A stretch of DNA of 64,000 bases, from positions 1,665,351-1,729,350 of the forward strand of contig RPFO01000436.1 of NCBI GenBank assembly GCA_009746045.1. The letters run 5' to 3'. Positions 11,641 through 61,310 of the stretch are shown piece by piece (within the stretch, counting starts at the first letter, position 1; every line of letters starts with the position of its first letter). The translations under genes and the position numbers were made by a program. Origin of the DNA: Mesostigma viride. Lineage: Eukaryota; Streptophyta; Mesostigmatophyceae; Mesostigmatales; Mesostigmataceae. The notes beneath the pieces are model-generated. The model saw only the letters and a program-made list of their open reading frames with translations, was not told the origin of the DNA and did no database searches.

Positions 11641-11644
11641 AATA

Positions 11645-12052
11645 TTCTGATCAGGCCGGCACTCCGCAAAGGTGAAAACCATTTGCGTTCAGTGCCGGGC
11701 CGCGGAAAACGCGGAAAAACGCGATCTGCAAATGAATCCGACCGGAATCGAACTGGGGACCTCTCGCACCAACTTTCGCTGACTATAGGACGGACGTCTC
11801 CGGTTACCATGGCATCGCCAACTTACACCTACAGTCATCCGCAAAAGTTCTCCTGTCCGGGGAGTGATGCAAGCCTTTCGGATTTGGTACTAGATAAATC
11901 ACTCGAGATCTGTGTGTAGGAGTACTACACACGTGTCTGCACGCGAGACTTGTTCAGTCTCGCAACGTGAGACGGGCTGAACACGGCTGGATCCTTCTTT
12001 TATTAGAAGGGGGCGTAGCCGGTACTATCGTCTATCGAAATCAGCCAAGCGT
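11645..12052 (-). mobile_element. SINE with truncated tRNA-like core, copy 1
   Basis: Four copies exist in the window (this one, 12053, 42728, 59732). On the minus strand, 11794 to 11737 reads like a tRNA lacking most of its anticodon arm. TCCGTCC and GGTCGGA can pair as an acceptor stem with one mismatch. TAGTCAGCGAAAGTTGG resembles an A box, and AGTTCGATTCC matches the B-box consensus. The A-to-B distance is only about 14 nt, too short for a real tRNA. The copy also holds short hairpins (GGAGTACTACACAC, CGAGACTTGTTCAGTCTCG). Classification as a tRNA-derived SINE is an inference. Confidence 0.6.
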
Positions 12053-12352
12053 ATATTCTGATCAGGCACTCCGCAAAGGTGAAAACCATTTGCGTTCAGT
12101 GCCGGGCCGCGGAAAACGCGGAAAAACGCGATCTGCAAATGAATCCGACCGGAATCGAACTGGGGACCTCTCGCACCAACTTTCGCTGACTATAGGACGG
12201 ACGTCTCCGGTTACCATGGCATCGCCAACTTACACCTACAGTCATCCGCAAAAGTTCTCCTGTCCGGGGAGTGATGCAAGCCTTTCGGATTTGGTACTAG
12301 ATAAATCACTCGAGATCTGTGTGTAGGAGTACTACACACGTGTCTGCACGCG
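12053..12352 (-). mobile_element. SINE copy 2, tandem to copy 1 and truncated
   Basis: Nearly identical to copy 1 from TATTCTGATCAGGC to GTCTGCACGCGAG, then it stops where copy 1 continues with the CGAGACTTG hairpin. In the minus-strand sense it therefore lacks its first ~100 bases. The two copies are head to tail. Confidence 0.75.
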
Positions 12353-12359
12353 AGAGATA

Positions 12360-15809: not shown

Positions 15810-22461
<6,652 letters not shown>

Positions 22462-23110: not shown

Positions 23111-23560
23111 GCAAAAAAAAATTAAAAAAATTAAAATTAAATTATTAAATTATAACATGCCTCCGTGGGGAGGTCATGTAGCACATATTCCATGATGGAT
23201 GGGGTGGAGGAAGCCGCGTAATCGAACTATACTAACGCTAGGCTATCTAGAAAATCCTAACTACACTACTCATCAAAACGCCTCCTCCGCTTGGGGGGAG
23301 GTGGCTTGCCCACAGGGTCGGGCGTGTGCGCCTTGACAATCTTCTTCCACCGCGTCTTGTCCTGCATGACAGTCCAAAGACGGGAGAGAGAGTGTATGCG
23401 GTGCTCAAATTGGGCTGGGACCACTAGGTCGTCCAGCAACATCTGAACGTAGTTGGTGACAGGTTTCCCTACCCTTTTGGGGATGTCCGCGGGGCCAGGC
23501 CAGGTCAGAATATGCCGCCCTGGCTGGCCAAGCCGCTGGGGGCCGGCCAGACCATCAAAC
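23111..23560 (-). pseudogene. 5'-truncated LINE, C-terminal fragment
   Basis: The minus-strand frame beginning near GLAGPQRLGQPGRHIL and ending KPPPPKRRRRFDE matches the C-terminal end of the LINE protein at 24215-25467. It is followed (leftwards) by the same 3' UTR, the tail hairpin CCTCCGTGGGGAGG and an A/T tail. Here the C-terminal frame is open where the longer copy has a frame break. Confidence 0.8.
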
Positions 23561-24214: not shown

Positions 24215-25620
24215 ACGCCTTCCCCCTGACAGTTTGCCGCTGGTCTTCATTTTTGTTGACTATATCAAGGCCTTTGACACGGTTCTCTGGGAGGCTCTTT
24301 GGGCCATCCTAGCTCTGGATCGGGTACCACCTGCGTTTATTGCTGCCATTCGCCGACTGTATGAGGGCTCACAGGCAGTAGTGCGGACTGCGGAAGGCAC
24401 CACTCCACCATTCCCCCTTCACCACGGGGTGTGGCAAGGTTGTGTCCTGTCCCCATACCTGTTCATTATTGTCGTGGATCACGTCATGCGCCGGGCACGT
24501 GCGCGCTTTACTGCTCTTAAGGGGTTCGAGCCAGGCTTGGACATCCTTAACGTGAAAGAGCACGGCGGGGTTAGACCTGGTTACCGCCTTGCCGACCTGA
24601 TTTATGCGGATGACACCACCCTCATCGAGAGCCCCGAGCACATTCAGACCTGGCTGGACTGTCTGGGCCTGGAGGCGCGGGCGGTGGGGTTGGAGATTAG
24701 TGTCAAAACTGAGGCGATGGTGATTGGGGCCTCCAGTACACCACCGCTGCCGCGCCTGCTCGACGGGACGGAGGTCCCGTTCCGCGACCGCTTCAAGCTG
24801 TTGGGGAGCTGGCTTCCTGACACTGCCGACGATGTGGACACCCGCATCGGCCTTGCCTGGGCCAAGCTCCGTTCGCTCACACCCTACTGGCGCTCGAAGG
24901 GCCTGGGCGGGCACCGCAAGCGCATGCTCTTCAAGGTCCTCGTCCTCACGGTGCTCACGTATGGCGCCGAGGCGTGGACCCTCCCACCCAAACTGGCAGC
25001 TCGGCTCGACGGCACGGTTTACAGGATGCTCCGACAGGTCCTTAACGTAGGTTTTTCCGAGCGTCCGTCATCAGAATCTTTGTATCATGGCATGCCTCGT
25101 ATTTCGGACGAGATTAGGCAGCGTAGGATAGCATTTGTAGGACACCTTGCTCGCACCAGCCAGGTCGACACCGCCCTTGGCCTGGCCGGCCCCCAGCGGC
25201 TTGGCCAGCCAGGGCGACACATTCTGACCTGGCCTGGCCCCGAGGGCATTCCCAAAAGGGTAGGGAAACCTGTCACGACCTACATCCAGATACATTGCTG
25301 GACGACCTAGTGGTCCCAGCCCAGTTTGAGCACCGCATCCACTCTCTCTCCCGTCTTTGGACTGCCATGCAGGACAAGACGCGGTGGAAGAAGATTGTCA
25401 AGGCGCACACGCCCGACCCTGTGGGCAAGCCCCCTCCCCCCAAGCGGAGGAGGCGTTTTGATGAGTAGTGTAGTTAGGATTTTCTAGATAGCTTAGAGTT
25501 AGGATAGTTCGATCACGCGGCTTCCTCCACCCCGTCCATTATGGAATATGTGCTACATGGCCTCCCCACGGAGGCATGTTATAATTTAATTTAATTTAAT
25601 TTTAATTTTAATTTTAATAC
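24215..25620 (+). pseudogene. LINE reverse transcriptase, 5'-truncated
   Basis: Reverse transcriptase of a non-LTR retrotransposon. Motifs are FVDYIKAFDTV (catalytic Asp), GVWQGCVLSPYLF and DLIYADDTTLIE (catalytic YADD). They are followed by the thumb and a C-terminal stretch typical of LINE polyproteins (RRIAFVGHLART). The frame is open to 25310 and continues shifted to 25467 (ending RRRRFDE), so one frame break lies near 25290. No endonuclease domain or start is present, which marks a 5'-truncated insertion. The 3' end carries the hairpin CCTCCCCACGGAGG and a (TTTAA)n tail at 25580-25620. Confidence 0.9.
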
Positions 25621-42286: not shown

Positions 42287-42727
42287 AGGCGATTCAGCTA
42301 ACTTTGTAATAATTCCGATCCCGACCGTGACGACGACCCCGATTCCGGCGCCGTCAATTTGTAAGTGTCAGGTCATTTTTGGCCGCAAAAGAGGCCACTT
42401 TTTGCCAAGTCCGGACCTGCTATGTGTAGCTTGTGTCTTTGGGTTACGCAAGCTGCCCTGGCCGGCGCGCGCAGACGTCCCTGGGCCTCCTGGCGGGCAA
42501 TTAGTGAAAGGCGCGAATCAGATGATGCATTAACTTGCAAGTCCAATATGTTAATTTGCAGCCTGCGGACTGCGGTATATAGCATGCAGGGCGGCGCACC
42601 GACATGAGTGACATGATGGCACATTTGTGGTGTCAGTAAAACACAGGCCGGCACTCATCACGGCACTGTCATGTGGCTGGCCAGCCGGGCTGGCTACACT
42701 ACTAGTTACGGCCCGGCGGGCAGGCGG
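42287..42727. other. No gene recognised
   Basis: Moderately GC-rich DNA without recognisable coding or repeat structure. Confidence 0.4.
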
Positions 42728-43110
42728 CGTGTATTCTGATTTGGCACGCCACAAAGGTGAAAACCATTTGCGTTCAGTGCCGGTCCGCGGAAAACGCGAT
42801 CTGCAAATGAATCCAGGCCGGAATCGAACTGGGGACCTCTCGCACCAATTTTTGCTGACTATAGGACGGACGTCTCCGGATCCTAAGGCATCGCCAACTG
42901 ACACCTACAGTCATCCGCAAAAGTTCTCCTTTCCGGGGAGTGATGCAAGCCTTTCGGATTTGGTACTAGATAAATCATTCGAGATCTGTTTGTGTAGGAG
43001 TACTACACACGTGTCCACTCGAGACTTGTTCAGTCTCGAAACGTGAGACGGGCTGAACACGGCTGGAACCTTCTTGAGAAGGGGGCGTAGCCGGTACTAT
43101 CGGCGTGTAT
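42728..43110 (-). mobile_element. SINE copy 3
   Basis: Same family as 11645-12052, with the tRNA-like core (GGAATCGAACT...GACTATAGGACGGACG) and the CGAGACTTGTTCAGTCTCG hairpin. It differs from copies 1 and 2 by about 5% by eye and ends with CTTGAGAAGGGGGCGTAGCC. Confidence 0.75.
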
Positions 43111-43535: not shown

Positions 43536-43704
43536 AACATGGTATGGGAAAACAGGAAACTGAAGCAGACTTTGGGCGGCTTTGATCATCGTCGCGTTTG
43601 TGGTATCGACCATCATGGAGAGCTCCTGCCCGTCGGTGTCGACGCCCGTGTTGTCACAGCCGGCGTGGCTTGCCATGCAAAAACGCTGTGACCAACCTGG
43701 TGTG

Positions 43705-43990
43705 ATATTAAATTAAATTAAATTAAATTATAACATGCCTCCGTTGGGAGATCATGTAGCACATAGTCCTTGATGGTGGGGTGGGATGGAAGGAGCCGCG
43801 TAATCGAACTAACCTAACCCTAATCTAGCTAGTCTAGAAAAATCCTAACTACCCTACTCATCAAAACGCCTCCTCCGCTTGGGGGGAGGTGGTTTGCCCA
43901 CAGGGTCGGGCGTGTGAGCCTTGACAATCCTCTTCCACCGCGTCTTGTTCTGCATGGCAGTCCAAAGAAGGGAGAGAGAGTGGATGTGGT
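43705..43990 (-). pseudogene. LINE 3' fragment
   Basis: Reverse orientation: (AATTT)n tail, hairpin CTCCGTTGGGAG, 3' UTR and the last ~40 codons (ending KPPPPKRRRRFDE) of the LINE whose reverse transcriptase is at 24215. Strongly 5'-truncated. Confidence 0.85.
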
Positions 43991-43999
43991 GTGATATGA

Positions 44000-44484: not shown

Positions 44485-45470
44485 TGTCGCGTCCGTGATC
44501 TATCACGTCCGCAATTCAGATTCTAGCGTAATTCTGACGTCCGCAGCCTTGTGCGGGTTGCTATACCGCGGCCCGGTACTGACGCCGCGGATCTCAGTTG
44601 TACTCACACGCCAAGTCCGCTGAGTTTGCTGACGGAACTTTTGGGCGGACCTGAATTTCACTGACATTCGTCACAAGGGCAGTTTGCCGAATGCTGGTAC
44701 GCAGCAAGCCGGCGTCGCACTGAGCAGATGTGCAATTTCAGGATTTCAACGTGGGACACCAGACACAAATGCAAGGAAGCCCCAGGCGGTGCCTGGCATA
44801 GCCGATAGATTTGCCCTTGTATATTTGTGTTCGCTTGACAGATAAAGCTTGAAGTTAAGCTTGTCGGAAATTAGACAATGTTATGATTGGCTGATGTCTA
44901 AAGTGGCGCTAGTGGCACCAGCCGCCAGGCTTGAGCTTTGAGCAGTATAGAAGGATGAGCAACGAACCATGGTGGTCGTTGTTCGTCCGTTTCTCTCCCT
45001 CACAACTGGTTTGTTGTCTTCATGGGGTGAAATAGTTCGAGCAGCCCGGAGCAGCCCCCGTGAGTGGTTGCATGCAGTCAGTTGCCATGAGGATGGACTG
45101 ACGGATATGACAATGTATTGGTTTTGTTAAGAATGTGTGTAAGACTGAGAACGAGACAAGGGACAGGGCCTTCGGGCACCCTGGTCGTCGTTGGCAAGAA
45201 TGCCAGTAGGAACTAGGTCGGGAACACACGCGCACTGCCGCCACAAGGGGCCTGCAGTGGCGTCAACCAAGGGACCTCACAGCTGCTCTTATAACTACAA
45301 CATTACAACTCGACACTCTTTGTAATTCGTCATGTATCTCATTGGAATTGAAATGTCTTTTGGTTGCTTTAATGATAAAGCATGGTCTCAAGAATCGGCT
45401 GGTTGGGCCGGATTGCCTGTCATGAAGGTGGCGGTGCCATAAAGGACCGCACCTTTCATTCTCATTTTAA
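44485..45470 (+). repeat. Terminal block A1 of the small element
   Basis: 986 bp, identical by inspection to 45915-46900. Begins TGTCGCGTCCGTGATC and ends CTCATTTTAA. A TATA-like GCAGTATAGAAGG near 44942 may mark a promoter. Confidence 0.9.
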
Positions 45471-45817
45471 ACGGACGAACAACCCATGATGGGTTCCGCA
45501 GTCCGGCCAGCCTGGGGTTCCTCCTGCTTCACCCAGGGAAGCACAAGGAAGAGGTTATTGCTTCGGCCTTCAAAAGCATCTGAAGAGGTTAGGCTTTTCC
45601 CTGTAAAAAGCCATTGAAGGGGTTATTGCTAAGCCTTTAAAAGCATGCATGTTAAGGTTGTTGCTGATCCTGGAAAAGCATCTTTGAGCAGCTGGATTTT
45701 TTTTTTTTTTTGCTGCTGCCTGGAATGACGCCCTCTTTGGGCTTCCTTCTTTTGTGTGAGCTGCCTTTCTTTCACTTTTTGCTCTCACGTTGTTGTGAGC
45801 TAAATAGTGGGGGGGGA

Positions 45818-45912
45818 GGTGGCATGTCTCACACATGATTACTGCTGATAGTGGATGCATTCCAAGTAGCGGTAATGACCAGTCCAGGATGATATGGCAC
45901 GCAAACGCGACA
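45818..45912 (+). repeat. Block B1 of the small element
   Basis: 95 bp starting GGTGGCATGTCTCACAC directly after the purine tract and ending ACGCGACA. Followed by GC and then the start of A2. Confidence 0.9.
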
Positions 45913-45914
45913 GC

Positions 45915-46900
45915 TGTCGCGTCCGTGATCTATCACGTCCGCAATTCAGATTCTAGCGTAATTCTGACGTCCGCAGCCTTGTGCGGGTTGCTATACCGCG
46001 GCCCGGTACTGACGCCGCGGATCTCAGTTGTACTCACACGCCAAGTCCGCTGAGTTTGCTGACGGAACTTTTGGGCGGACCTGAATTTCACTGACATTCG
46101 TCACAAGGGCAGTTTGCCGAATGCTGGTACGCAGCAAGCCGGCGTCGCACTGAGCAGATGTGCAATTTCAGGATTTCAACGTGGGACACCAGACACAAAT
46201 GCAAGGAAGCCCCAGGCGGTGCCTGGCATAGCCGATAGATTTGCCCTTGTATATTTGTGTTCGCTTGACAGATAAAGCTTGAAGTTAAGCTTGTCGGAAA
46301 TTAGACAATGTTATGATTGGCTGATGTCTAAAGTGGCGCTAGTGGCACCAGCCGCCAGGCTTGAGCTTTGAGCAGTATAGAAGGATGAGCAACGAACCAT
46401 GGTGGTCGTTGTTCGTCCGTTTCTCTCCCTCACAACTGGTTTGTTGTCTTCATGGGGTGAAATAGTTCGAGCAGCCCGGAGCAGCCCCCGTGAGTGGTTG
46501 CATGCAGTCAGTTGCCATGAGGATGGACTGACGGATATGACAATGTATTGGTTTTGTTAAGAATGTGTGTAAGACTGAGAACGAGACAAGGGACAGGGCC
46601 TTCGGGCACCCTGGTCGTCGTTGGCAAGAATGCCAGTAGGAACTAGGTCGGGAACACACGCGCACTGCCGCCACAAGGGGCCTGCAGTGGCGTCAACCAA
46701 GGGACCTCACAGCTGCTCTTATAACTACAACATTACAACTCGACACTCTTTGTAATTCGTCATGTATCTCATTGGAATTGAAATGTCTTTTGGTTGCTTT
46801 AATGATAAAGCATGGTCTCAAGAATCGGCTGGTTGGGCCGGATTGCCTGTCATGAAGGTGGCGGTGCCATAAAGGACCGCACCTTTCATTCTCATTTTAA
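45915..46900 (+). repeat. Block A2 of the small element
   Basis: Second copy of A. The B1-GC-A2 junction forms the 18-bp palindrome ACGCGACAGCTGTCGCGT (45905-45922), which looks like two element ends joined. Confidence 0.9.
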
Positions 46901-46995
46901 GGTGGCATGTCTCACACATGATTACTGCTGATAGTGGATGCATTCCAAGTAGCGGTAATGACCAGTCCAGGATGATATGGCACGCAAACGCGACA
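46901..46995 (+). repeat. Terminal block B2 of the small element
   Basis: Second copy of B, ending ACGCGACA at the element boundary. The target duplication TCCC follows. Confidence 0.9.
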
Positions 46996-47099
46996 TCCCT
47001 CTGCTCTAGTAATTTATAGCCTCGTGACTTGTCTCATGGATAAGTCAGATGGTTCACAGCTGCAATTTGAATTGCCCTTTTAGTTAATTATATTGGTAG

Positions 47100-48415: not shown

Positions 48416-48419
48416 TATA

Positions 48420-48561
48420 TGTCGCGTCTGCGTACCACAATCTCCGGCGCTACCATGGCGGCTGGCCATGCTCAGCTTTGGTAAAACCCAAATGAGCTGA
48501 GCTGACGTGCCTGCCTTAACTGCATGCCCGGTGGGGTGGGCGAGGACCTGTCCCATGATTC
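48420..48561 (-). repeat. Terminal block B2 of the large element
   Basis: About 142 bp, matching B1 except for one substitution and a 3-bp indel in a G-rich stretch. Its outer end TGTCGCGTCTGCG (plus-strand reading) abuts the TATA duplication. Confidence 0.9.
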
Positions 48562-49732
48562 AACGAAAGGAGAGTTCTCAGCCGAGGACAAGGAATTGTC
48601 CCTCGTGCCTGATGACCACCTTAATGCTTTTTCCTCCCATGATATAGAACAATGTTTTCACAACACACACTTTGCACAGTCTGATGATGAAGCCGCACAT
48701 GCGGAATTTATTGAGAAAGTTAATACAATTACAACACGTTGATAGTCTCAATATCGATGCACTCCATGCTCACGAGCCCGCAGTTAGGCAGCGCTCCATG
48801 ACATGCTACCGGCCTTGCTCCCAAGGAAAGGGAGAAACACGAAGGCCACTAACGAGAGACTCGAAGAGACTACACGCTACGTGAGAGTCCTCTTCGACTA
48901 TGAATCAAACCATTCGTCATGCCACACGCATGACACACGCCACACTTGTCAGTCCAGCCAGGAATGCCAAAACTATCTTGCTGCCTGAACCATGCAAACA
49001 GAAACCGCATTCCAGTTGCCGTCCTGGCTTACTACCACACATGCCAACAAAAACAGGAAGGCATCCCGACAAATCTAAATTGCTACCCTGTTGCCGATCT
49101 CATCTCCTAGAGGCTCCGGCATTTCTGTCCCTGGGAATGTCCGGCATTTAGTCACGACCACCAAGGTCGAAGCATAATATCCTTCAAACAATCTGCACGC
49201 TCACACCTTGCGTGTGAGTGGCCCAGCAAACATTGCTTCTAATCTTTCCTTTCTAGAAGAAATCCCTTTGTAGGGCTGCCAGCGATTTCGCATTCATTCC
49301 AGCGATCTGGCTCCGCACCGCAAATTGTCCTTTTCCATTTTCTGTCCAGTCCTCATAACGTTGACCCGCTATTCTACACCACAAAGACACCTGGCCTGTC
49401 AATAGCCTCGGCGCTGTTGAAGTCCAGCAGTCCAGCTCCAGCTCCAGCTCCAGCTCCAGCTCCAGCTCCAGCTGTCCACTAACTCGCGTATGATCCTCTC
49501 GACGCTGCGCACTTGTGCTGCCGTCCGCTCAAGTACGTCAGTGCTGCGCGCCCAGCCGTGCCTGGCCCGGCGCGCGCGCACGTGCACTTTCGTCCGCTCT
49601 TATGCTGCAAGTGCTAGTGTCCCCCCCCGGTCACTAGCCTTTGTCGAAAATGCGCAGAAAACAAATTCCTTGCGCACGTCACCGGTATTGTGCATAGTGG
49701 GCGCCCGGATGACATAGCTCGCGTCCGTGACA
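48562..49732 (-). repeat. Block A2 of the large element
   Basis: 1171 bp, partner of 57986-59159. Contains a (CCAGCT)n run at about 49434-49472 and ends GTCCGTGACA on the plus strand. Short frames inside are not conserved coding. Confidence 0.92.
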
Positions 49733-49734
49733 GC

Positions 49735-49873
49735 TGTCGCGTCTGCGTACCACAATCTCCGGCGCCACCATGGCGGCTGGCCATGCTCAGCTTTGGTAAA
49801 ACCCAAATGAGCTGAGCTGACGTGCCTGCCTTAACTGCATGCCCGGGGTGGGCGAGGACCTGTCCCATGATTC
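49735..49873 (-). repeat. Block B1 of the large element, preceded by the purine tract
   Basis: About 139 bp. In the element's direction the purine tract GCGAGGGGGGAA (about 49882-49871) runs into B1. Plus-strand synthesis would therefore start at B1 and not at a TG end. Confidence 0.85.
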
Positions 49874-49898
49874 CCCCCTCGCTGGCTCTCATGGCTCC

Positions 49899-50238
49899 TC
49901 ACATGGCCAGCGACCGTGCCAACACCACAGCAGCTAAGGAAATGGTGACGCTACTGGTTGCGAAACGGGCAGCGACACAAACTGGGCAAAACCACTGGCC
50001 CGCTGGCACGGTGGTGAGCGCTGGCTGCAAGCAGTGCATGTGCCACCCACAATTACAGTGATCACACAGCAACATGGTATCCCCCTGGTCTACGCGATGG
50101 CAAACCTGACACTGTGCGTCCTTGACCCGCCTGGCCGTGTGCGGGGCGAGGTCAGGCAATAAGTTGGGCAACGAACACGGACTGAGGTTGCTTACGTTAT
50201 CGGTGGTGCGACTGCCGTCGACGCCCTCCAAATGGCGA
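49899..50238 (-). CDS. PHD finger at the C-terminus of the polyprotein
   Basis: A C4HC3 zinc finger: CQVC, then LLCDHC, WHMHC and WFCPVC at the spacing of a PHD finger. These domains read histone H3 tails, including their methylation state. It follows the integrase after a frame change at a G run (plus-strand CCCC 50239-50242) and ends about 25 bp before the purine tract. A chromatin reader fused after an integrase could steer insertion, as chromodomains do in chromoviruses; that role is inferred. Aromatic-cage residues cannot be judged from the sequence alone. Confidence 0.85.
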
Positions 50239-50242
50239 CCCC

Positions 50243-50802
50243 AGATGGCTTGATGGCGACGATCCGCAAGATGGTCGGCCCCGCAGTCACGTCAAGAGTG
50301 TCGGTCAGCTGCGTGCGGAGAAAGACGAACTGCCCCGGACGAAAATGCAGCTGACGGGCCATGTAAGCGCCCCCCCGGCGCTGAGCGTAGCGCAGGGTAT
50401 CTCGGTGCTGGGCGATGAACAAGTTGTTCATGGCGATGGGCATAACCTTGCGGAAAGTAGCCGCCCGTGCGGTCACCTCAGCCAGAAACTGACTGGCGTT
50501 GTCAAACGCCATAGGGGTGGGGTGTGCACTCTGCGCCTCCGTGGGGAGCAAGGGTGCGCGCCCAAACAACAGGAAATACGGGGAGAAACAGGCGAGCGAC
50601 TCCTGGGGTGACATTCGGTAACCCATGGCTATCCACGCCAGTTCACGATCCCACATAGTGAATGATGCTGACTGCAGGCTCCACTTGCGCAAAGCCTGCT
50701 TGACAGTCTGCACCAATCTCTCAGCCAAACCATTGGCCTGAGGATGCTCGCGAGAAGTGCGACGGTGATCAATGAGACATGCATCCAACAATTCCTGAAA
50801 TT
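50243..50802 (-). CDS. Integrase C-terminal part (catalytic Glu and tail)
   Basis: Continuation of the integrase in a shifted frame. It starts with the ELLDACLIDHRRTS block and the catalytic Glu in HPQANGLAERLVQ, then a conserved tail (YMARQLHFRPGQFVFLR, the GPY/F-like region) and ends close to the PHD frame. The break from the preceding frame coincides with a G5 run (plus-strand CCCCC 50803-50807), where one additional G would restore continuity. Confidence 0.88.
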
Positions 50803-53489
50803 CCCCCGAAACTCCCCGCCCTGGTCGGTGACCACCTCCGCGGGGGCGCCAAACCTGGCGATGATGTCGGCGAAGTGCTTGGCGGTGGTGGCGGCCTGCT
50901 TGTCAGCAATGGGGATGAGCTCGACCCACTTGCTAAAACTTTCGACACACACCATGACATACTTGTGGCCATCTGCACTTTCATCAAAGGGCCCACACAG
51001 GTCTACGTGCCAGCGGTAGAAGAGCCCTCTGATGGGTAGGCTCATCAATTCTTTCGCATCGTGGTCCACATTGAACCTGGCCTTCACCCGGGCACACTGC
51101 GCGCAGCGAGCGACGACCTGCGCGACTGTGGCACGCATGCCGTTCCACCAATAAGAGGCGCGCACTAGCGCCAAAGTGCGGTTACCACCCAGGTGGCCAT
51201 ACCGCTCATGGGCTTGCTGGACGATGGCGACCCGCTTGTGAGGCGGCGGCACCACCACTTTGCGCTTGCCGATCATTTTGTGGAGGACCCCGGCATCCCA
51301 CGAGTAGGTGACCGCCCTATGTTGCACCCTATTCAACTCAGCGTCACGCTGGGCTGAGGACCAATCAACAGGGGTTGGGGTGAGAGCTATCCCTTGGACC
51401 TGCTCCAACACACGCCCATCGAGCCACACATCACCCATGTTGCATTCCACTGTGAGATGGCCAACCAACACCACCTGGAGTGCTAGGTATCGTGCCAAGG
51501 TATTGTCAATGTCAAAGGACGGAGAATTACCTTCCTCCAACGCGAGGAGGCCAGCGGCAGGGGTGAAGGGAGAAGGGTGAACTGCATTGCAGCTTGCCGC
51601 AAAGTCTGCGACTGTATACTCGACTGCGCGCCAGTCTGCCTCGGCGTCGGCGTCAGCGAAGCCTGCAGCATTAACAAAAACCACAGACCCAGGCGAGCTC
51701 TCGGCCCCTAGGGCCCGCGCACCAGTGTTGTCAACAGTGGTTGGTAGAGCATACCTGGACAGGACGTCCGCGTTGGAGTGATCCACACCTGGCCGATGGA
51801 CGATTGTCAGGTGGTACTCCTGAATGATCATTGCCCACCGGGCCAGCTTACCCGTGAGTTTGTCGCTGGTCATCAACCACAATAAGGGCTGGTGATCAGT
51901 GACAAGTGTGAACACCCGCCCAAAGAGATATGGCCTGAAGTGCTTGATGGCCCACACAACGGCTAACGCTTCCCCCTCGTAGGAAGAGTACCGACTCTCG
52001 GCAGAGTTGTTACTCCGACTAGCGTACGCGATAACATGCTCGCGCCCCGCATCGTCCTTTTGTGCTAGCACAGCCCCTAGGCCTACCTTGGACCAATCGG
52101 TGTAAAGAATGAAGGGCAGAGCATAGTCGGGGGCGCGTAGGATAGGAGCGGCAGTCAGTTCCTGTTTGATGGTATCGATGGCTCGCTGCTGAGCCGGACC
52201 CCACGCCCAGACATTGCCCTTCTTCAACAACTCAGTCAGGGGTTTGACTTTGGTGCTGAAATTCTGAATATATCCTCGATAATAGCCAGCTAGCCCGAGA
52301 TACGCGCGCACCCCCGAGATGTCGATGGGCACTGCGGCGTTGCTGATGGCTTCCACTTTGGCTGCCTCAGGGGTCCGGCCACCTGGTACAATCTGATGGC
52401 CAAGAAACCCTATGGTCTGTTGGGCGAACTTGCACTTTTCAGGGTGCAGCCGCAGGTTGGCCTTATCTAGGGCGATCCGAACCTGATCGAGGTGAGCTAA
52501 GTGCTGGTCAAATGTCTCGCTAAAGACAATGACATCGTCTATGTAGCAGGCTGCAAATGGCAACCCTGCCAGCACCTGGTCCATGGCACGTTGGAACACC
52601 GCACTAGCGTTGCGATGTCCGAATGGCATGCGAACCCACTCGTACAGACGGGTCCCACCCCAAAAGGCCAGCTTGCGCTGATCTGCCTCTACGACCTTGA
52701 TCTGATGGAAGCCGCTACGCAAATCTAGCGACGACACATACTTGACCTGGGGAGATATTTTATCCAAAACATCATCGACCCGAGGCATGGGGTACCTATC
52801 AACAGGAGTGTGCGCGTTCAGCTGACGCAGGTCAGTGGCCATGCGCATACCTGTCCACTCGCCTGTGATGGTATCCTTCTTGGGTGCGACCACCGTGGCA
52901 GCTGCATAACTGGAGGATGAAGCGCGGATGATCCCAGCTGCCTCTAGCTCTCGACAGTTAGCATCTACGAATTCCAGCTCAGCCAAGCTCAGCCTATGCT
53001 GCCGCCTGAATAAGGGCTGATCCGTATCTAGTGGGACCCCCATGCAGCCCCCGTTGTAGCACCCTAGTTCTTCACTGCTGAAAGCGAATACTGAGCGTGC
53101 AGAATGCAACCAGTGCTCCATAGCCTTGCGTTGCGTGGCGGTGAGGTGCTCACCTATGGCCCATATGTGAGAGGCAGCAGGATCTGCGACTGCGGCACTC
53201 CTACTGTCGAGACAAGGCCCCCGGACAGCGGCATCGTGGAAAAGGGAAAATGCGGCTACACCGGGTGTGACGCTCACCTGCTGAATGGCACGGACTGCGC
53301 GACCGACCGATTGCTGCAGGGTGGGCGCTCCAGCGAACACCGTGCTGGACAACAAGGACGTCATGAGGATAACGCTCCATAGTTGAAGCAGCCGCGATCT
53401 CCATGGCGACCCAGTGCCGCCGGACGCTGTTGGCCGGACACCAGCCGCGTGGGCACTGACAGGCGGTGGCGGTGTGGGGATATCTCCCC
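50803..53489 (-). CDS. Reverse transcriptase, RNase H and integrase core
   Basis: Part of a long frame open from about 53977 to 50629. After the methyltransferase end come a Pro-rich linker and a hydrophobic stretch (about 53390-53330, LWSVILMTSLLSSTVFAG), then the RT. RT motifs are MRMATDLRQLN, YVSSLDLRSGFHQI, LYEWVRMPFG and the catalytic YIDD at about 52537-52548. RNase H has LYTDWSKVGLG (Asp), YEGEAL (Glu) and VTDHQPL (Asp). Integrase has an HHCC zinc site (HERYGHLGG...CAQCARVK) and two catalytic Asp residues, WHVDLCGPF and VVTDQGGEF; the Glu is in the next frame. These are Ty3/gypsy hallmarks. The frame has no stop in about 1,100 codons, so it has been under recent selection. Confidence 0.95.
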
Positions 53490-54490
53490 CACCCTGGCGC
53501 ACTTGCATTGCGGCCCGCAGAACATACCCAACCTGGAAGGCTGACATGGCTTGCCCAACGAGAGACCACCTAGTGGCCTCTAAAACCCCCTCAGCGGCGG
53601 ACGCCCCCACATGGAACCCCATGCTCACCTCCCGAAACTCAGCGGGCGGCTGCACCAACAAACCCGTACCGGTGTCCCATACCAAACCCTTGCCCCGGTC
53701 CCTGTAGGCCGATGACCCCTGGTAACTAACCAAGGTGGGAAGAGCGCACATAGGCTTACCTACGTGATTGACGGGTGCGTAAGGGTGCCGATCGGCGACA
53801 TCTACACGCTGCGTGACCAAATGTGGTGGCAGCGCCACCTCCGCGGGCATGCCGTCGTGCTGTCGTGTGATCGCATCTACCACTGCCTGGATGGTGGTGG
53901 TGAGTGCAAGGTTGGTCCAGAATGCGCGGTACCTGTGGGTGAGCCCGCCCAATCCTGCATTGTCGCACGTGACTGGGCCCCTAAGATGTCCACGATCTGG
54001 GCCCAGTCCTTCCTCACTACCTCGTGAGGGCTGTCGTCGGCCACCACGTTCTCAAAAAGATACGCTAGTGGCTGGTCCTGCAGCTGCTGCAAGAGTCCAA
54101 CGACTCGAAGCAGATCCCAAAACAACCCGCTCCTAGGATCCGCAAGCCCGCGTCCTACGCCGGCCTGACTCAACCCTTGACATTCCCAGCCCGCGAGGAC
54201 GAGGTCTATCCTCTTGTGCCGCCTCAAAAGGCCTCGCACATGAACCTCCCCAATAGCACGGATATCCTGAGGGCACTCCCCAAACGGATCTGTCCACGCA
54301 GACGGAGGAACTGAGATGGATACAGGGCAGACAGCTGGGCACAGTGATGCCTATACACTGCCCGAGCGGTAGGAGACGGCTCTACGGCGATCAACGTGTG
54401 GCACGTACCGCCTGCAGCGAGAAAGCCAGCCAGCCCCCCTCCCATCCCAGCAAACAATTCTAGCAATACAACCCCTCGGACAAGACCCGC
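53490..54490 (-). CDS. C5-cytosine DNA methyltransferase domain in the polyprotein
   Basis: Motifs occur in canonical order over three frames. Motif I is LLELFAGMGGGLAGFLAAG (SAM binding) and motif II IAVEPSPTARAVY, in frame a (54490-54282). Motif III DIRAIGEVH, motif IV LVLAGWECQGLSQAG with the catalytic Cys, and motif VI FENV are in frame b (54277-53982). Motif VIII THRYRAFWTNL, then a target-recognition stretch, PTLVSYQGSS (IX) and a C-terminal RWSLVGQAMSAFQVGY (X) are in frame c, continuous with the RT. The usual Pro before the catalytic Cys is Glu (WEC). The HRxRxFWxNL form of motif VIII recalls DNMT3-like enzymes. Order is not the permuted DRM order. Both internal frame changes lie by G4 runs and would each be closed by one added G. 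Confidence 0.9.
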
Positions 54491-55841
54491 GACTCTGCCA
54501 CAACATCGGCACAGAAGTTACCTTCGTTGTCGCGACAGCCACTTGGGACTGCGATTGCCGCGGGAGATGAGAGAGTTGTTGCTGCCGCACCGCGTTGGTG
54601 ACGTGCTGACGCAAAAGGGCCTGCCGCGCTTGCGGCTGCTGTCGCGCCGCCCACGTGCTGTGCAATGAGGCCCGTCCCACCAGCGCTGTTGGGATGCACG
54701 GCCGATGCTTATCACGCACAGCCCCCCCAGCTGCCGTGACCTCCCCCATCCGTACCTCCACCACCGCGTCGTGCGAGCCAGCCTCGACCCGGTTGACCGT
54801 CGAGACACGCACTGCCCCAGTGTCCGAGCTGTAGCAGCTCACCGGGATGCTTGCTTGGCGCATGGCGTCACCGTCTCTGTCAACGATGTACACCGCGCGG
54901 CCTTCCCACATGCGTACCTCGAGCCGCATGGGAAACATGACCTCCATGCCGACCAGCACGTCATACGATGACTGCTCGGTCACAAGGGCATTCACAGGGA
55001 TGCAGGCCATGTCGGATGGCCTGAGCGGGTTGAGGATGACCATTACCTGGACCGCAGTCATGGCAAAGGGTTTAGCGGCAGGGCCCTGCCAGCCCGCCAC
55101 GGACACATGACTGTCCCGCAGCCCGCCATTCTCCCTGGTTAGGTTGAGCAACTGGGCCAGCCGAGCACTGATAACGAGTGGCTGGGCCCCGCTGTCCAGT
55201 TTCACGACCAATTCATGGTCAGTACTGTAGACCACGTTGCTCAGGGGCTCCCCGTGCCCCTGCGCCTGAAACGCCATTGCTGGCTCGCCATCCGGATATG
55301 AGGTGACAGTGGGTGCCCTAGGCACTACGCACGCCCGCTGCGCGTTGTCCAAGACACCATGAGCGACATGACCCACGATTACCGAAGCCGATGCAGGGCG
55401 ATGCCCGACAAATGTGGCTGTCTCAGCGTTGTGCAACCTACGGGCGTCCATTGTGTCAGCGTACCGCTGTACCTCTGACGCATGCGACCCGAGCACCTCC
55501 ACGGCCCGCTGACCGAACCACTCGACCACTTGCCGGGGAGTGTATGCAGGCGTGTCCACGACCGATGGCATAGGGTATAATGGCAACAACCTGCGCCGCT
55601 GCTCTGCCCCAGCAGGATTGTCGTGTTCCAGGGTGGAGCCGGTCCGAGCGGGAGCCATGCGAAAGGACTGAGGCAACTGCCCCACAGTCTCACTTGGCTG
55701 CCCCACCTGAAACGACGGTGGTGCACGTGCTTGCTTCCCGCGCGCGCCAACTGCGTGGATGTCCAACGCCATCACGTCGGCTGGCCGCCAGAATTCCTCG
55801 TCCCTGTATTGAACCTGCGATCCCCCATCCTCCCTTTCACG
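54490..55841 (-). CDS. Retroviral-type aspartic protease region
   Basis: Open frame with a single protease active site, VVKLDSGAQPLVISARLA at about residues 235-252 of the frame starting at 55934, and the second conserved element SYDVLVGMEVMFPM about 90 residues later. The N-terminal part (YRDEEFWRPADVMALDIHAVG onwards) has no recognised domain. After the protease comes a basic Gln/Arg-rich linker leading to the methyltransferase, with a frame change near 54490. This is the only frame change that one added G does not simply close; it needs a net shift of the opposite sign. Confidence 0.85.
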
Positions 55842-55847
55842 CCCCCC

Positions 55848-56075
55848 GCCTCGCCCGTCGGCTGAATGATGACCACCCCCGCGTCCACCTTCTTGTCCTC
55901 CACGTCCGCAAAGTGCACCCCCGGCGCTGGGCACTGCCCCGCCAGATGGGTGCGGACCGTTGCCGGGTGTGACTTCTTACACGCCTTGGGACAATCACGT
56001 TTGATGTGCCCATCCTGACCGCACAGGAAGCAGCCCGATTTGCGCGCATCCGTCCTACCCGTCTGTGAGGACGTG
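55848..56075 (-). CDS. Nucleocapsid CCHC zinc knuckle
   Basis: CFLCGQDGHIKRDC is a C-x2-C-x4-H-x4-C knuckle, which binds genomic RNA in Gag proteins. It lies in the -1 frame relative to gag, reached at a G7 run (plus-strand C7, 56076-56082). It leaves that frame at a G6 run (55842-55847). Either a programmed -1 shift or a missing G could explain the first change. Confidence 0.85.
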
Positions 56076-56082
56076 CCCCCCC

Positions 56083-57750
56083 AGCTCGCGTCGGCGGAGC
56101 GGCAGCGTCCTTGTTGCCGCCAGCGGCGTTACCCTGGGTTGCATCATGCGATGAGGCGTTGCGAGACCCCCCTTGGTTCCTGCTAGCACCGTGGCCGCCT
56201 TGCGGGCGCGCTTGTCTTGTGGCAGACGACTCACCCGACTTGGCCTTGGTCAGCGCGTCGACCTTGGCCTGCAGCTCGGCCACCACCGTGCTTACCGAGA
56301 TCCGGCCTTGCGCGTGTCGTCGCATCATGGCCCTGACCTCAATGCACAGTGACCGCAATCGCCACGGCTGGCCGTTGGGCGGCGTGGGCAGCTCCATCTC
56401 CTTGGAGCCTAGCGCTTGCAGCCATTTCTGACACGCCAGCTTTTCGGACCAGTCCTCCACTTCGCCGGCGAACTCCATGAGGCGCTCGTAAGATTGCTCC
56501 GGGGTTTCACCCTCGGCTATCTTGAAACTGCGCCACTCACGCTCTGCCTTGATGGTCTCCACCGGGTATTCCTGGCGAAGGAGGCCCCACAGTTCCTCGG
56601 CAGGGTCGACACCATACATGATGTTGTCATAGTCGGGCTGGCCACGCCCGTCGAAGCCGAACCACACGTCCGTGTGACGCGTGTACAGCGAGACCTCTCT
56701 CCACTGCTCCACCAGCCTAGCCACTCGCCTCAGCGTAAGGCCGTGAAAGAAGAAATGCATGTTGTTCATGACAAACTCATGCATTACAGCGCCTTGCGTA
56801 GTCATGTATTGCAGATCAATCCATGACTTGTACGCGTTGTAGGCCTGCGCCAGCGTGGCCAGATTGCCGGTTGTGGAGAACTTCTCGCGCATGTCCACCC
56901 GTGGTAGGGTGGGCATCTTCGCGCCTTCAGGTATGAGGCGCACCCTTTGCGGGTACTGCACCCCATCGGCATCCTCCGGCGGTCGCTGAGCTGCGCGTCC
57001 CTGCGCCAGCGTGCTTGGGCGTGCTGCCTCCCGTACTCGGAAAGCCAGCGGCGTGGTTATGTCCTCCATGGGCGGAATGCGCCCGATTGGCACACTTGAC
57101 CACCGTGCAGTCGACCCGCCGGTCAGCGCCCCACCGCCTCGCCCAAACGGAATTGAGACCCCGCCTGGCAGCATGCGTCCTGGTGCACCCCTGCGTGGGT
57201 CCATCGCGCGCGCCAGCCCTGCCCCGTTCTCCTCGTGCAATCCGTCTCGAGCTTGATCGAAAGGCAGGCGCCTGGGCGCCAGCGTATACTCGCCCCGTGG
57301 CTGACCATCCGCCTCACCAAGCAAGTCGTGTTGGGTTAGCGACCCAGCCAAAACCCCCGGTTCCATCGGAGCCCTTCCCGCCGCATTACCTGAGGTTGGC
57401 GGCTGGTCCCGCTCCCTCGGCTCCGCGGCAACACCACTTGGGCCCGGCATCGATGCCTGCCCGTCCCATGGTGTGGACTGCAGATGACGACCCTCTACGG
57501 CCACCAATCTGTCGGTCACTTCCCGCATCTGCAGCGCCAGTTGCTGCTGCAACTGTTGCGACTGTTGCTGCATCTGCGCTTGCATCTGCGCGAACAGCGC
57601 CACCATACTCAGCGGCGCTTCTTGGTCGCGACTCTCACCCACTGCGGGTACGGCGGGAGGAATTCCGCCATTCGACCCCGGAGCGGACGTGTTGGCATCT
57701 GCTCTATTTGCATCCGCCATGGCTCGAGTCTGCGCTCGCGTCAGTGGCAT
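56083..57750 (-). CDS. Gag structural protein
   Basis: Start chosen at 57750 (MPLTRAQTRAMADANRA), because the upstream residues are Cys/Trp-rich and atypical; an ATG at 57720 is also possible. A Gln-rich coiled coil (QMQAQMQQQSQQLQQQLAL) occupies about residues 55-80, followed by a Pro/Gly/Arg-rich linker. The capsid-like domain lies at about 290-450, with the retrotransposon-gag pattern (WREVSLYTRHTDVWFGFD, EYPVETIKAEREWRSFKIAEGE, SYERLMEFAGEVEDW, CQKWLQALG). A basic Gly/Asn/Arg tail leads to the knuckle. Confidence 0.85.
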
Positions 57751-57985
57751 GCACCAGCTGACCGATGGGCAAAACAAGAACCAACAAGCCTAGGTTAGCC
57801 TGCCAGAAAAAGACAAGAGCCAGCAAATTCTGGCTAGTTCTATTTTCTTAAAATCTGTCTCAAGACACTTCCTTTACAAACTGTCAGCCAGGCCGTTCCC
57901 TGTACTGCTGATGGTTGATAAACACTAAAGCCAACGTCTTGGCTTCGAACAGGAGGAAGCAGACTACCGGGTAGTCTCTTCGAGT
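57751..57985 (-). other. Leader of the large element with a hairpin next to A1
   Basis: Between A1 and gag. A 7-bp stem with a 3-nt loop (AGACTACCGGGTAGTCT, 57961-57977) begins 9 nt inside A1, where a tRNA primer-binding site would normally lie. I saw no match to the usual TGGTATCAGAGC-type initiator-Met site. Confidence 0.6.
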
Positions 57986-59159
57986 AACGAAAGGAGAGTT
58001 CTCAGCCGAGGACAAGGAATTGTCCCTCGTGCCTGATGACCACCTTAATGCTTTTTCCTCCCCTGATATAGAACAATGTTTTCACAACACACACTTTGCA
58101 CAGTCTGATGATGAAGCCGCACATGCGGAATTTATTGAGAAAGTTAATACAATTACAACACGTTGATAGTCTCAATATCGATGCACTCCATGCTCACGAG
58201 CCCGCAGTTAGGCAGCGCTCCATGACATGCTACCGGCCTTGCTCCCAAGGAAAGGGAGAAACACGAAGGCCACTAACGAGAGACTCGAAGAGACTACACG
58301 CTACGTGAGAGTCCTCTTCGACTATGAATCAAACCATTCGTCATGCCACACGCATGACACACGCCACACTTGTCAGTCCAGCCAGGAATGCCAAAACTAT
58401 CTTGCTGCCTGAACCATGCAAACAGAAACCGCATTCCAGTTGCCGTCCTGGCTTACTACCACACATGCCAACAAAAACAGGAAGGCATCCCGACAAATCT
58501 AAATTGCTACCCTGTTGCCGATCTCATCTCCTAGAGGCTCCGGCATTTCTGTCCCTGGGAATGTCCGGCATTTAGTCACGACCACCAAGGTCGAAGCATA
58601 ATATCCTTCAAACAATCTGCACGCTCACACCTTGCGTGTGAGTGGCCCAGCAAACATTGCTTCTAATCTTTCCTTTCTAGAAGAAATCCCTTTGTAGGGC
58701 TGCCAGCGATTTCGCAGTCATTCCAGCGATCTGGCTCCGCACCGCAAATTGTCCTTTTCCATTTTCTGTCCAGTCCTCATAACGTTGACCCGCTATTCTA
58801 CACCACAAAGACACCTGGCCTGTCAATAGCCTCGGCGCTGTTGAAGTCCAGCAGTCCAGCTCCAGCTCCAGCTCCAGCTCCAGCTCCAGCTCCAGCTGTC
58901 CACTATAACTCGCGTATGATCCTCTCGACGCTGCGCACTTGTGCTGCCGTCCGCTCAAGTGCGTCAGTGCTGCGCGCCCAGCCGTGCCTGGCCCGGCGCG
59001 CGCGCACGTGCACTTTCGTCCGCTCTTATGCTGCAAGTGCTAGTGTCCCCCCCCCGGTCACTAGCCTTTGTCGAAAATGCGCAGAAAACAAATTCCTTGC
59101 GCACGTCACCGGTATTGTGCATAGTGGGTGCCCGGATGACATAGCTCGCGTCCGTGACA
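57986..59159 (-). repeat. Terminal block A1 of the large element
   Basis: 1174 bp, about 99% identical to 48562-49732. Differences include C for A in CTCCCCTGATAT, an extra TA after GTCCACTA, and one C in a C run. The outer end GTCCGTGACA abuts the TATA duplication. Confidence 0.92.
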
Positions 59160-59731
59160 TATATTGCGCAAGCATTCTTGGCTACCACGTATCCATTGCA
59201 GCACCGAGCGACCCGCCCGATCCCTGCAACTGGCTGTCCGCGACAGATCCCGGAGCTTGTGCATACCACCCCCCGCCGGGGCCCCCGTTTCCGGGGTTGG
59301 GGGGTGCATGGGTGGGGTCTTGACCCCCGCCCCCCCCCCCCCATTTTTTTTAGGGGGCCGGGGGGGGGGTTACGTCCCCCCCCCCCCAAATATAATAATA
59401 ATAATTATTATTATATTTTATATTCTCCCAGGCGGGAATTCTCCCGCGCTGCGAGGCGGGAATTCACCCGCGCTGTGAGTGCTGTCACTCAAGAACTCAA
59501 AAAGGGGTGCGGAGTGGTGGCCGCTCATCACCGAAGTTGCCTCCCTGGCCACTGCCGCTCACTGATCACCCCTCTGCAATTTTCATCCATGTCGGCCTCA
59601 AGGCCTGTCAGTCTTGTGAACAACGACGACTATGATCATGTGCTATCCTTATCCCTATTACACGTGCTATCCTTATTCCTGGTATTACATTCAGTTTGGT
59701 TTACACACTTGGCATAAATGTAGTGTCAGCT
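59160..59731. other. Low-complexity G/C runs and (TAA)n; no gene
   Basis: 59320-59395 has long C runs alternating with G runs, then a perfect (TAA)n/(TTA)n palindrome near 59390-59418 and a twice-repeated GGCGGGAATTC motif. Nothing coding was recognised. Confidence 0.6.
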
Positions 59732-60095
59732 TATTCTGATTTGGCACGCCGCAAAGGTGAAAACCAGTTGCGTTCAGTGCCGGTCAGCGGAAAACGCGGA
59801 AAACGCGATCTGCAAGTGAATCCGACCGGAATGGAACTGGGGACCTCTCGCACCAACTTTCGCTGACTATAGGACGGACGTTTCCGGACCCTAGCGCATC
59901 GCCAACTTACACCTACAGTCATCCGCAAAAGTCTCCTTTCCGGGGAGTGATGCAAGCCTTTCGGATTTGGTACTAGATAAATCATTCGAGATCTGTGTGT
60001 GTAGGAGTACTACACACGTGTCTGCACGCGAGACTTGTTCACTGTTCAGTCTCGCAACGTGAGACGGGCTGAACACGGCTGGAACCTTCTTTGTC
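59732..60095 (-). mobile_element. SINE copy 4
   Basis: Same family as at 11645. The tRNA-like core carries a change to GGAATGGAACT, which weakens its B box. It has a GTTCACTGTTCAG duplication in the hairpin. Confidence 0.75.
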
Positions 60096-60149: not shown

Positions 60150-60391
60150 CTGAGTAATGTAATTTAATTTAATTTTTAATTTTAAAAGGCAGCATGATCA
60201 TCAAAAGTTAATTAATCTTATGAGTCGCGCGGCCGGGTCCAACATGATCATTAAATAAAAATGTAGATTAAATTATAACATGACTCCGTTGGGAGATCAT
60301 GTAGCACATATTCCCTTGCTGGATGGATGGAGGTGGGCAGAGCCGCAAAACCGAACTAATATAACTCTACTAAGCTAATCTAATCTAGAAA
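60150..60391 (-). pseudogene. LINE 3' UTR fragment
   Basis: ATTAAATTATAACATGACTC, the CTCCGTTGGGAG hairpin and the adjoining TGTAGCACATATTCCC...TCTAGAAAA match the 3' UTR at 23140-23260 and 43730-43850. It is cut off before the coding region by the element starting at about 60392. A/T-rich direct repeats precede it. Confidence 0.7.
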
Positions 60392-61310
60392 ATGATCGAT
60401 CATGGTCAAGGTGCTCCTCCCATCACGACCTGGGCGGACATGCTTGCAACATATACCACCTCCACCACCTCCGCCGTCGCAGCCCAGCTCCAACGGCAGA
60501 CGCTTGACCTCCGCGAGGAGGCCGAGCTCGCCAAGCGCAGCCTCAACGTCATCGTCAAGAACTTCAACATGGAGGAAGGTGAGAATTCCGAGAAGCTTGC
60601 ACGTGCGTTTGAGAGCAAAATCCTTGCACGCATGGATGGGCCTCGATCCTTGGTGAGATTAAGCTGACCGCCCACCGCCTCCCCCGCGTGCGGGGTAAGG
60701 CCGGGGCGCCTCCGCTTCTTCTCATCTTTGAGAGCCCAGCGGACAAGATTTCGTTTCTCAGACGCCGCAAGCGGCTCGAGAACACTCCCTTCACCGTGGA
60801 CGACGACTTGACCCTGGCGCAGCAACAACGGCGACGGGAGCTATGGCCGACCTACCTCCAGCTCCGGCACACCAAGGCGGGGCAGCCGGTGTACTGGAAG
60901 GGGGCGGCCATCTACGTCGGCCACAAGCCCTGGCACGCGACCCCCTCGACCACCGCGGCCCCAGCGACTCCAGAAGCCCCAGCCTAGGGGAATACAGCAG
61001 CAGTAGTGTAGAATAGTTAGACAGTGGCCTTGTACATGCCCGCCTACTATAGGCACTATACCAGCTTAGGCCTAGCCTTTTTAATCATGTACATGTGTGC
61101 CTATGATGTGCCACACCCCAGATGATGCCTAGCTTTATGCAGTGCCCATGCAGGGAGTCACTCTCTGCTGAGAAGCCATGCCCTAGCTCTTGTATAGCCA
61201 TGATGATCTTCCCCCACATGGCATGCTCCCCCTTAGCTGGGCATAGCGTGATAGACCATGAGGGTGCAGGTGCCCTGGTGCACCTAATTAATTAAGGGGA
61301 TCGACGGTCC
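60392..61310 (+). pseudogene. Decayed LINE ORF1-like element, copy 2
   Basis: Better preserved than the copy at 8573. The frame from 60392 (TTWADMLATYTTSTTS, coiled coil QTLDLREEAELAKRSL, MEEGENSEKLARAFESKIL) shifts near 60660 into 60688-60987. That frame contains LLIFESPADKISFLRRRKRL and ends VYWKGAAIYVGHKPWHAT. The layout of an N-terminal helix, an RNA-binding-like middle and a basic C-terminal half resembles non-LTR ORF1 proteins. A single frame change separates the two halves. The 3' UTR continues to the TTAATTAAGG tail at about 61290. Confidence 0.55.

Follow-up and report, generated by a model that had tools for sequence, protein, structure and literature searches.

A Ty3/gypsy-like retrotransposon of Mesostigma viride with split direct repeats: probable integration of end-joined cDNA opened at a palindrome inside the long terminal repeat

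Introduction

How can a retrotransposon that encodes a DDE integrase come to lie in the chromosome with its direct repeats divided into two blocks, in an order otherwise met in elements with tyrosine recombinases? This question is raised by a Ty3/gypsy element located in a stretch of Mesostigma viride DNA (contig RPFO01000436.1; the whole stretch, 64 kb long, is called the window, and its positions are used below). The original prediction, based on this sequence, had noted the likeness to DIRS, PAT and Ngaro elements in the presence of a DDE integrase and TG...CA ends, and had compared the arrangement with a circle containing two long terminal repeats (LTRs), opened inside one of them. Each of the anatomical points held. 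The answer for which we argue, with a probability of about 0.8, is that the outer ends of the reverse-transcribed DNA (cDNA) would be joined and the DNA opened at a palindrome inside the LTR, whether circle formation or cutting comes first.

Results

Split direct repeats between target-site duplications

The main element has the following parts.

48420-59159, genes on the minus strand: main Ty3/gypsy element, A1-internal-B1-GC-A2-B2 between TATA duplications
59160-59163: TATA target-site duplication beside A1, read at the element edge
57986-59159, minus strand: A1, 1174 bp, starts TGTCAC, delimited by alignment; putative promoter, R and U5 roles
49874-57985, minus strand: internal region, 8112 bp
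49735-49873, minus strand: B1, 139 bp, ends CGCGACA
49733-49734, minus strand: GC spacer between B1 and A2
49729-49738: palindrome GACA-GC-TGTC spanning B1-GC-A2, proposed integrase attachment site
48562-49732, minus strand: A2, 1171 bp
48559-48564, minus strand: A2/B2 joint GTT/GAATC, proposed fused cDNA ends; differs among insertions
48420-48561, minus strand: B2, 142 bp, ends CGCGACA at TATA
48416-48419: TATA target-site duplication beside B2, read at the element edge

Re-alignment reproduced the blocks of ~1.17 kb (A) and ~0.14 kb (B), their order and the outer ends as originally claimed; the TATA duplication was found at both ends, and its chance occurrence was excluded. Among the genome copies, 4-bp duplications are general. 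A1 and A2, aligned over 1174 columns, differ by 4 mismatches and have gaps in 3 columns; for B1 and B2, with 142 columns, there is 1 mismatch and gaps occur in 3. We take both repeat pairs to be young and to be the probable product of one event. The GC spacer is missing from both outer ends of the element. The window contains just two copies of the palindromic sequence GACAGCTGTC, one in the main element (49729-49738) and one in a second element (45909-45918), and the 11-mer CGACAGCTGTC gave 3 matches over both strands against 0.04 expected.

The second element, which was no part of the original prediction, is built as follows.

44485-46995, plus strand: second element, same layout, 2.5 kb; longest stop-to-stop frame 119 aa
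44481-44484: TCCC target-site duplication, left
44485-45470, plus strand: A'1, 986 bp, identical to A'2
44978-44992, plus strand: self-primer stretch in A'1 (A' 494-508), 15-nt complement of the primer site
45469-45483, plus strand: primer-binding site, last 2 nt of A'1 and next 13 nt
45471-45816, plus strand: internal region, 346 bp, G-run at its end
45817-45912, plus strand: B'1, 96 bp
45909-45918: palindrome GACA-GC-TGTC at B'1-GC-A'2
45915-46900, plus strand: A'2, 986 bp
46900-46995, plus strand: B'2, 96 bp, one base common with A'2; identical to B'1
46996-46999: TCCC target-site duplication, right

It lies 1.4 kb from the main element, and its B'1/A'2 junction reads CGCGACA-GC-TGTCGCG. 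Local alignment of the two elements gave scores of 46.5 for A, 16 for B and 20 for the internal regions, the maxima in 60 shuffles being 37.5, 14.5 and 27, respectively; at most, these values suggest a faint kinship in A and B. The layout, the GC spacer, the palindrome and the 4-bp duplication are nonetheless common to both, which supports the proposed route.

A simpler history may be imagined for a single copy. A-internal-B looks on paper like an AB block interrupted by 8.1 kb, and the internal region could represent an element that had entered one member of a tandem AB pair. However, no duplication is present at the A/internal and internal/B borders, the breakpoints coincide with the primer site and the polypurine tract, and the layout recurs at many sites. 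We consider this explanation scarcely credible, and it was rejected on these grounds.

Self-priming and the expected LTR

Three features define the LTR that reverse transcription of the main element would be expected to produce.

58283-58297, minus strand: self-primer stretch within A1, at element positions 863-877; all 15 nt are complementary to the site that follows A1
57971-57985, minus strand: primer-binding site, first 15 nt past A1, recognised by complementarity
49873-49881, minus strand: polypurine-tract-like CGAGGGGGG, adjoining B1; its last G is the first base of B1

Sequence complementary to the primer site beside the repeat, as in Tf1, was found in both window elements. None of the control windows of the internal regions reached a 15-nt complement (0 of 1151 in the main element, largest 12; 0 of 286 in the second, largest 10). 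When the leaders were folded from the self-primer on, the pair probabilities of primer and site were 0.83-1.0 (main element) and 0.60-1.0 (second element), and in the latter a TATA-like sequence lies ~32 nt upstream of the self-primer. It is strongly indicated, as far as complementarity and folding can tell, that both elements prime their own reverse transcription by pairing of A with the primer site.

A G-run directly precedes the B block in both elements. With the primer site at the A1/internal border and the G-run at the internal/B1 border, the standard scheme of reverse transcription leads one to expect an LTR of the form B-GC-A. Such a cDNA LTR would have (G)AATC and GTT as its outer ends; the TG...CA termini of the insertion would be expected to sit inside it, at the palindrome GACA-GC-TGTC. 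If the LTR is defined in this way, A2/B2 represents its two ends fused.

The self-primer stretch has an imperfect inverted counterpart, TCGAAGAGGACT, located just upstream of it (58283-58330, minus strand).

Layout of copies in the genome

Searches were made over 440 Mb of the genome, with the 40 best candidates scored per query, so that the proportions given here are those of best-matching copies. The AB-block query (40 scored places, best 40 of 751 candidates) spans the A/B joint and cannot reveal jointless copies; it favours neither palindrome opening, as either would leave an AB block. B-GC precedes AB at 30 of the 40 places, GACAGC before A being the classing criterion, and the remaining 10 are solo AB blocks with no B before A and with identical 4-bp flanks. 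After places with the same flanks had been merged, 36 distinct insertions were left, of which 27 are split and 9 are solo. Solo blocks are the remnants to be expected of recombination between A1 and A2. GC-TGTC after the AB block was met in none of the 36 distinct insertions (0 of 40 places), and no variant B-GC-A joint was found among the 40 places. The predicted opening at the B/A junction can be refined to the palindrome GACA-GC-TGTC, which in the copies scored is always that of the upstream LTR. None of the 27 distinct split insertions was opened at the other palindrome of a symmetric two-LTR circle, and an even choice between the two is thereby ruled out.

The A1/internal query (best 40 of 565 candidates) is free of the joint bias. 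The A1 start was located in 33 of its 40 places (27 of 33 fetched with 131-base stretches, 5 earlier loci and the window copy), and at 31 of these 33 starts no B-GC precedes A1, as the split order requires; 27 distinct flanks are represented, four starts repeating the flank of another place. Since a conventional copy, with B-GC-A before the internal region, would put B-GC before A1, these 31 starts do not fit one. Conventional BA-internal-BA copies, one of the outcomes named in advance as fatal to the prediction, were unseen at the 33 located starts except for two units of a tandem array. The internal-B1-GC-A2 query (best 40 of 969) returned 41 rows, of which 39 enter GC-A from query position 1, one from position 15, and one is a partial second match.

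These data bear on the possibility that a conventional LTR element is involved, the copies of which were rearranged by recombination after insertion. Such recombination, between A1 and A2, accounts for the solo AB blocks, and unequal exchange accounts for the tandem array. Nevertheless, the layout is identical in 27 distinct insertions and in the second element, the 4-bp duplications sit at the permuted ends, and B-GC was found before A1 solely in the tandem units. We find post-insertion rearrangement very improbable and rejected it.

The array itself (L085, L082 and L081; G000:C2000, ~178000-196000; L numbers designate genome copies) reads A-internal-B-GC-A-internal in tandem, with A1/internal points 9387 and 7655 bp apart; unequal exchange could have produced it, or a multimeric DNA could have served as intermediate. 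At L109 and at G000:C380:7951-8759, two B-GC-A matches ~0.5 kb apart were observed, with A partly missing or rearranged.

Target-site duplications of genome copies

Short duplications of 4 bp, as known for LTR elements, accompany the genome copies as well as the second element. They were found in all 9 distinct solo AB blocks and in 11 of the 13 full copies in which both flanks were compared, the matching flanks of the latter being TATA, AAAA, TGCC, GGTG, CGGG, AGGG, TTCT, GAAG, GGGG, TGGT and CGCC. The ends of L006, L010, L022, L030 and L014 were paired by contig and orientation at 19-24 kb, a spacing which implies further insertions inside. Of the pattern expected of every full copy, A-internal-B-A-B with 4-bp duplications, the duplication was found in 11 of 13 copies (not in L014 and L004), and 31 of 33 A1 starts agreed with the order.

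The first partner assigned to L004 was L033, an A1 with flank GCGT that lies at the distance expected. L072, an A1 on the same contig and strand as L004, has the flank ACCC, identical to that following L004, and the flank GCGT of L033 and L061 is the one following L008. Viewed after the fact, L004, L008, L033, L061 and L072 (C1956) apparently represent an element nested in the gag of another, together with an inversion. The GCGT and ACCC flanks are repeated by L007, L036 and L073 (C929), the GCGT copies adjoining gag-like sequence, and the nested-inverted arrangement apparently exists twice in the assembly (C1956 and C929).

The A2/B2 joint

Among the 36 distinct insertions, 27 have a bare joint, in which the A end directly meets AATC, and 9 have aberrant joints of 8 kinds. 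In 10 of the bare joints CTTT replaces CGTT, a change found also in one A1 of that type (L048), and L028, L051 and L052 show base differences close to a bare joint. The aberrant joints are GTT+G+AATC (L001 and L013), GTT+GATC (L006), loss of four bases (L005), GTT+AC (L018), GTT+TT (L029), GTT+ACTCGTCTCGGT (L025; ACTCG plus 7 nt), GTT+ACTCGAAGAGACT (L053), which equals 13 nt of the primer site, and GTT+CGTGGGGGGGG (L015), which is polypurine-like, a similar G-run preceding B1 in the main element. Letters resembling the primer site or a polypurine tract are present in four of the nine (L015, L018, L025 and L053). Nineteen further stretches yielded 7 joints (6 bare, some with nearby base differences, and the aberrant L115) and 7 B ends, while 10 showed neither; GC-TG followed none of these 7 B ends.

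Joints of retroviral two-LTR circles can hold remnants of the primer site or of the polypurine tract. As such remnants are what unjoined cDNA ends would leave, we read the A2/B2 joint as one that is probably made anew in every round.

Coding content

The following open reading frames (ORFs) were assigned in the main element.

55837-57777, minus strand: gag-like ORF, 646 aa, from the ORF listing
54351-55934, minus strand: ORF with a weak aspartic-protease match, its Pfam score being under Pfam's own cut-off
50629-53952, minus strand: Pol ORF with reverse transcriptase, RNase H, integrase H2C2 and the first part of the DDE core (rve), by Pfam
50192-50791, minus strand: probable remainder of the integrase in another frame (frame-shifted copy), from the ORF listing; no Pfam match

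The last ORF carries what we take to be the integrase motif with the catalytic glutamate. Over 77% of its length, the gag ORF shares 99% identity with a EukProt protein labelled Mesvir1, a label that we take to denote the streptophyte alga Mesostigma viride. Solved structures related to Pol by sequence include Ty3 Gag-Pol, which is the best match, and the integrase of prototype foamy virus (PFV). A single Pol carries reverse transcriptase and RNase H ahead of a DDE integrase, as in Ty3/gypsy elements, and judged by its proteins the element is a member of Ty3/gypsy, albeit a variant that fails the conventional two-LTR feature: instead of an internal region between two full TG...CA LTRs, A1-internal-B1-GC-A2-B2 was found. 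No relative could be confirmed when viral contigs were searched with Pol by itself or with an alignment of 15 Pol sequences.

The coding content is also relevant to a route like that of PAT and Ngaro, in which a B2-A1 joint would be copied on the B1-GC-A2 splint and the element inserted as a templated circle. The A1-internal-B1-A2-B2 order is, according to the sources cited below, common to PAT, Ngaro and VIPER. On the other hand, the Pfam scan of the four ORFs revealed no tyrosine recombinase, 4-bp duplications are present, primer and polypurine sites flank the internal region in the fashion of LTR elements, and the A2/B2 joint is variable. Such a route appears improbable, and on this evidence it was rejected.

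PHD fingers are found in many Pol relatives (P0001-P0120), and C5 DNA methylase domains in some. The window has a stretch rich in Cys and His at 49900-50090 (minus strand) that resembles a PHD finger.

Other repeats in the window

Long arrays of 4-base units, CTCA and then CTAA (~800 and ~600 bp), occupy 20936-22338. Two inverted copies of a ~440-bp repeat, 93% alike and 1.6 kb apart (23121-23554 and 25178-25618), may represent a DNA transposon; further partial matches of this repeat lie near 43703-43991 and 60245-60393. A dispersed repeat of ~350 bp, ~90-99% alike, has four copies in the window (11642-12355, 42727-43102 and 59732-60092).

Discussion

Proposed route of integration

We propose that the main element belongs to a Ty3/gypsy lineage whose integration site has shifted to the inside of the LTR. 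Its RNA would start in A1 and end in A2, and a stretch of A would pair with the site at the A1 end for self-priming. Reverse transcription would then give linear [B-GC-A]-internal-[B-GC-A], as the positions of the primer and polypurine sites suggest. The outer ends of this cDNA would be joined without a template, giving rise to the A2/B2 joint; the circle itself is postulated from the variable scar left in the genome. DDE integrases form recessed CA ends by removal of two bases. Here, integrase is the presumed enzyme, and a cut of both strands at CA^GC^TG in the upstream LTR would generate a pair of recessed CA ends, sharing the 5' GC, to be inserted with a 4-bp duplication. Joined ends together with a cut at the upstream palindrome predict exactly A1-internal-B1-GC-A2-B2, and in this product the promoter, primer site and polypurine tract would be retained, as would the two halves of the palindrome and a second copy of A in which to terminate. 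The likeness to a two-LTR circle opened inside one LTR is strengthened by features that the original prediction did not have, namely the self-primer site exactly at the A1/internal border, the G-run and the variable, in part remnant-bearing joints, with the circle as the conjectural part.

The main rival is a variant of this route, compatible with its broad form. The palindrome of the left LTR could be cut in linear cDNA, both ends inserted, and the A end joined to the B fragment by host repair. The same product and the same variable joint would result, and the location of the site ~140 bp from the DNA end (96 bp in the second element) might explain the choice of the left LTR. However, the small fragment must then stay in the complex and an open break must be mended at every insertion. 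The present data do not separate the two orders of events; we favour circle formation followed by cutting, at about 2 to 1, and regard cutting first as a less likely though serious possibility.

Several observations weigh against joining of cDNA ends followed by opening at the inner palindrome. A symmetric circle holds two identical palindromes, yet the same one was opened in all 27 distinct split insertions, so that some bias has to be postulated; our guess is that the upstream palindrome is chosen because it lies closer to a cDNA end (~140 bp, as compared with ~1.17 kb for the other). The A2/B2 joint is bare in most insertions, and minor deviations, for example GATC (L006) and TT (L029), could be later mutations. 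In the main element no TATA-like sequence was recognised ahead of the self-primer, and the second family is known from one copy only. B-GC does precede A1 at two of the 33 located starts (L081 and L082, in the tandem array on C2000), while seven of the 40 starts were not located (L064, L071, L074, L075, L093, L097 and L099). The internal-B1-GC-A2 query favours split copies and is hence silent on single A-internal-B insertions. Finally, the flanks of L014 and L004 (2 of 13) were unmatched as first paired.

A broader claim is reasonably probable: that in this lineage of DDE retrotransposons end-joined cDNA is a regular, perhaps obligatory, substrate, with the palindrome carried in the LTR and the layout rebuilt in each round, and that at least two families of this genome have acquired a PAT-like order in the absence of a tyrosine recombinase. 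Our estimate is held down by the fact that copies lacking a joint escape the AB query.

Integration from joined two-LTR DNA has long been disputed for retroviruses, in which such DNA is often called a dead end (PMC5314604). The elements described here would offer a natural family with such joints in dozens of insertions, each joint being a readable record of a single reverse-transcription event, and with a putatively cleavable palindrome placed inside the LTR. Split direct repeats need not mean a tyrosine recombinase, which bears on the classification of elements, and repeat-finding programs that expect two flanking LTRs would be affected by the split layout.

Comparison with known systems

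The main element resembles Ty3 and its green-lineage relatives in the order of Gag, protease-like region, reverse transcriptase, RNase H, H2C2 and DDE integrase, and in its TG...CA ends and short duplication. Unlike in these elements, TG...CA would not be expected at the ends of its reverse-transcribed LTR, and its repeats are split into A and B.

Elements of the PAT/DIRS/Ngaro order are not known to make a target-site duplication. Split direct repeats combined with a tyrosine recombinase are described for PAT, Ngaro and VIPER in two papers (PMC4157794, PMC6681497), and the A1-internal-B1-A2-B2 arrangement is that of PAT, TOC, Kangaroo, Ngaro and VIPER; unlike them, the main element has a DDE integrase and 4-bp duplications. 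We do not file it under PAT/DIRS/Ngaro, since it shares the split repeats with that order but neither a tyrosine recombinase nor duplication-free insertion. No description of a DDE element of split-repeat layout was found in searches of an open-licence library, which lacks most subscription journals; a passage on circular permutation that came up deals with a possible one-LTR circle in an assembly.

In the transposon circles of IS3 and IS911, a DDE enzyme acts on abutted ends a few bases apart; these are DNA transposons without reverse transcription, unlike the main element. Tf1 of fission yeast has ordinary LTRs. It resembles the elements described here in its self-complementary primer site. 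The first 11 bases of Tf1 RNA pair with their own primer site (PMC7175516), as compared with 13-15 nt deduced here from complementarity.

A parallel to the proposed cut is that of retroviral two-LTR circles, the palindromic junction of which can be cut by the integrases of PFV and human immunodeficiency virus type 1 (HIV-1) (PMC1180852, PMC1905944); for the Mesostigma element such cutting is proposed by analogy. A variable end joint with remnants of the primer site and polypurine tract, as in these circles, was found here as well (9 of 36 aberrant). In the retroviral circles the palindrome is the new end joint, whereas the LTR of the main element carries the palindrome in its interior, and the proposed end joint is found at another place.

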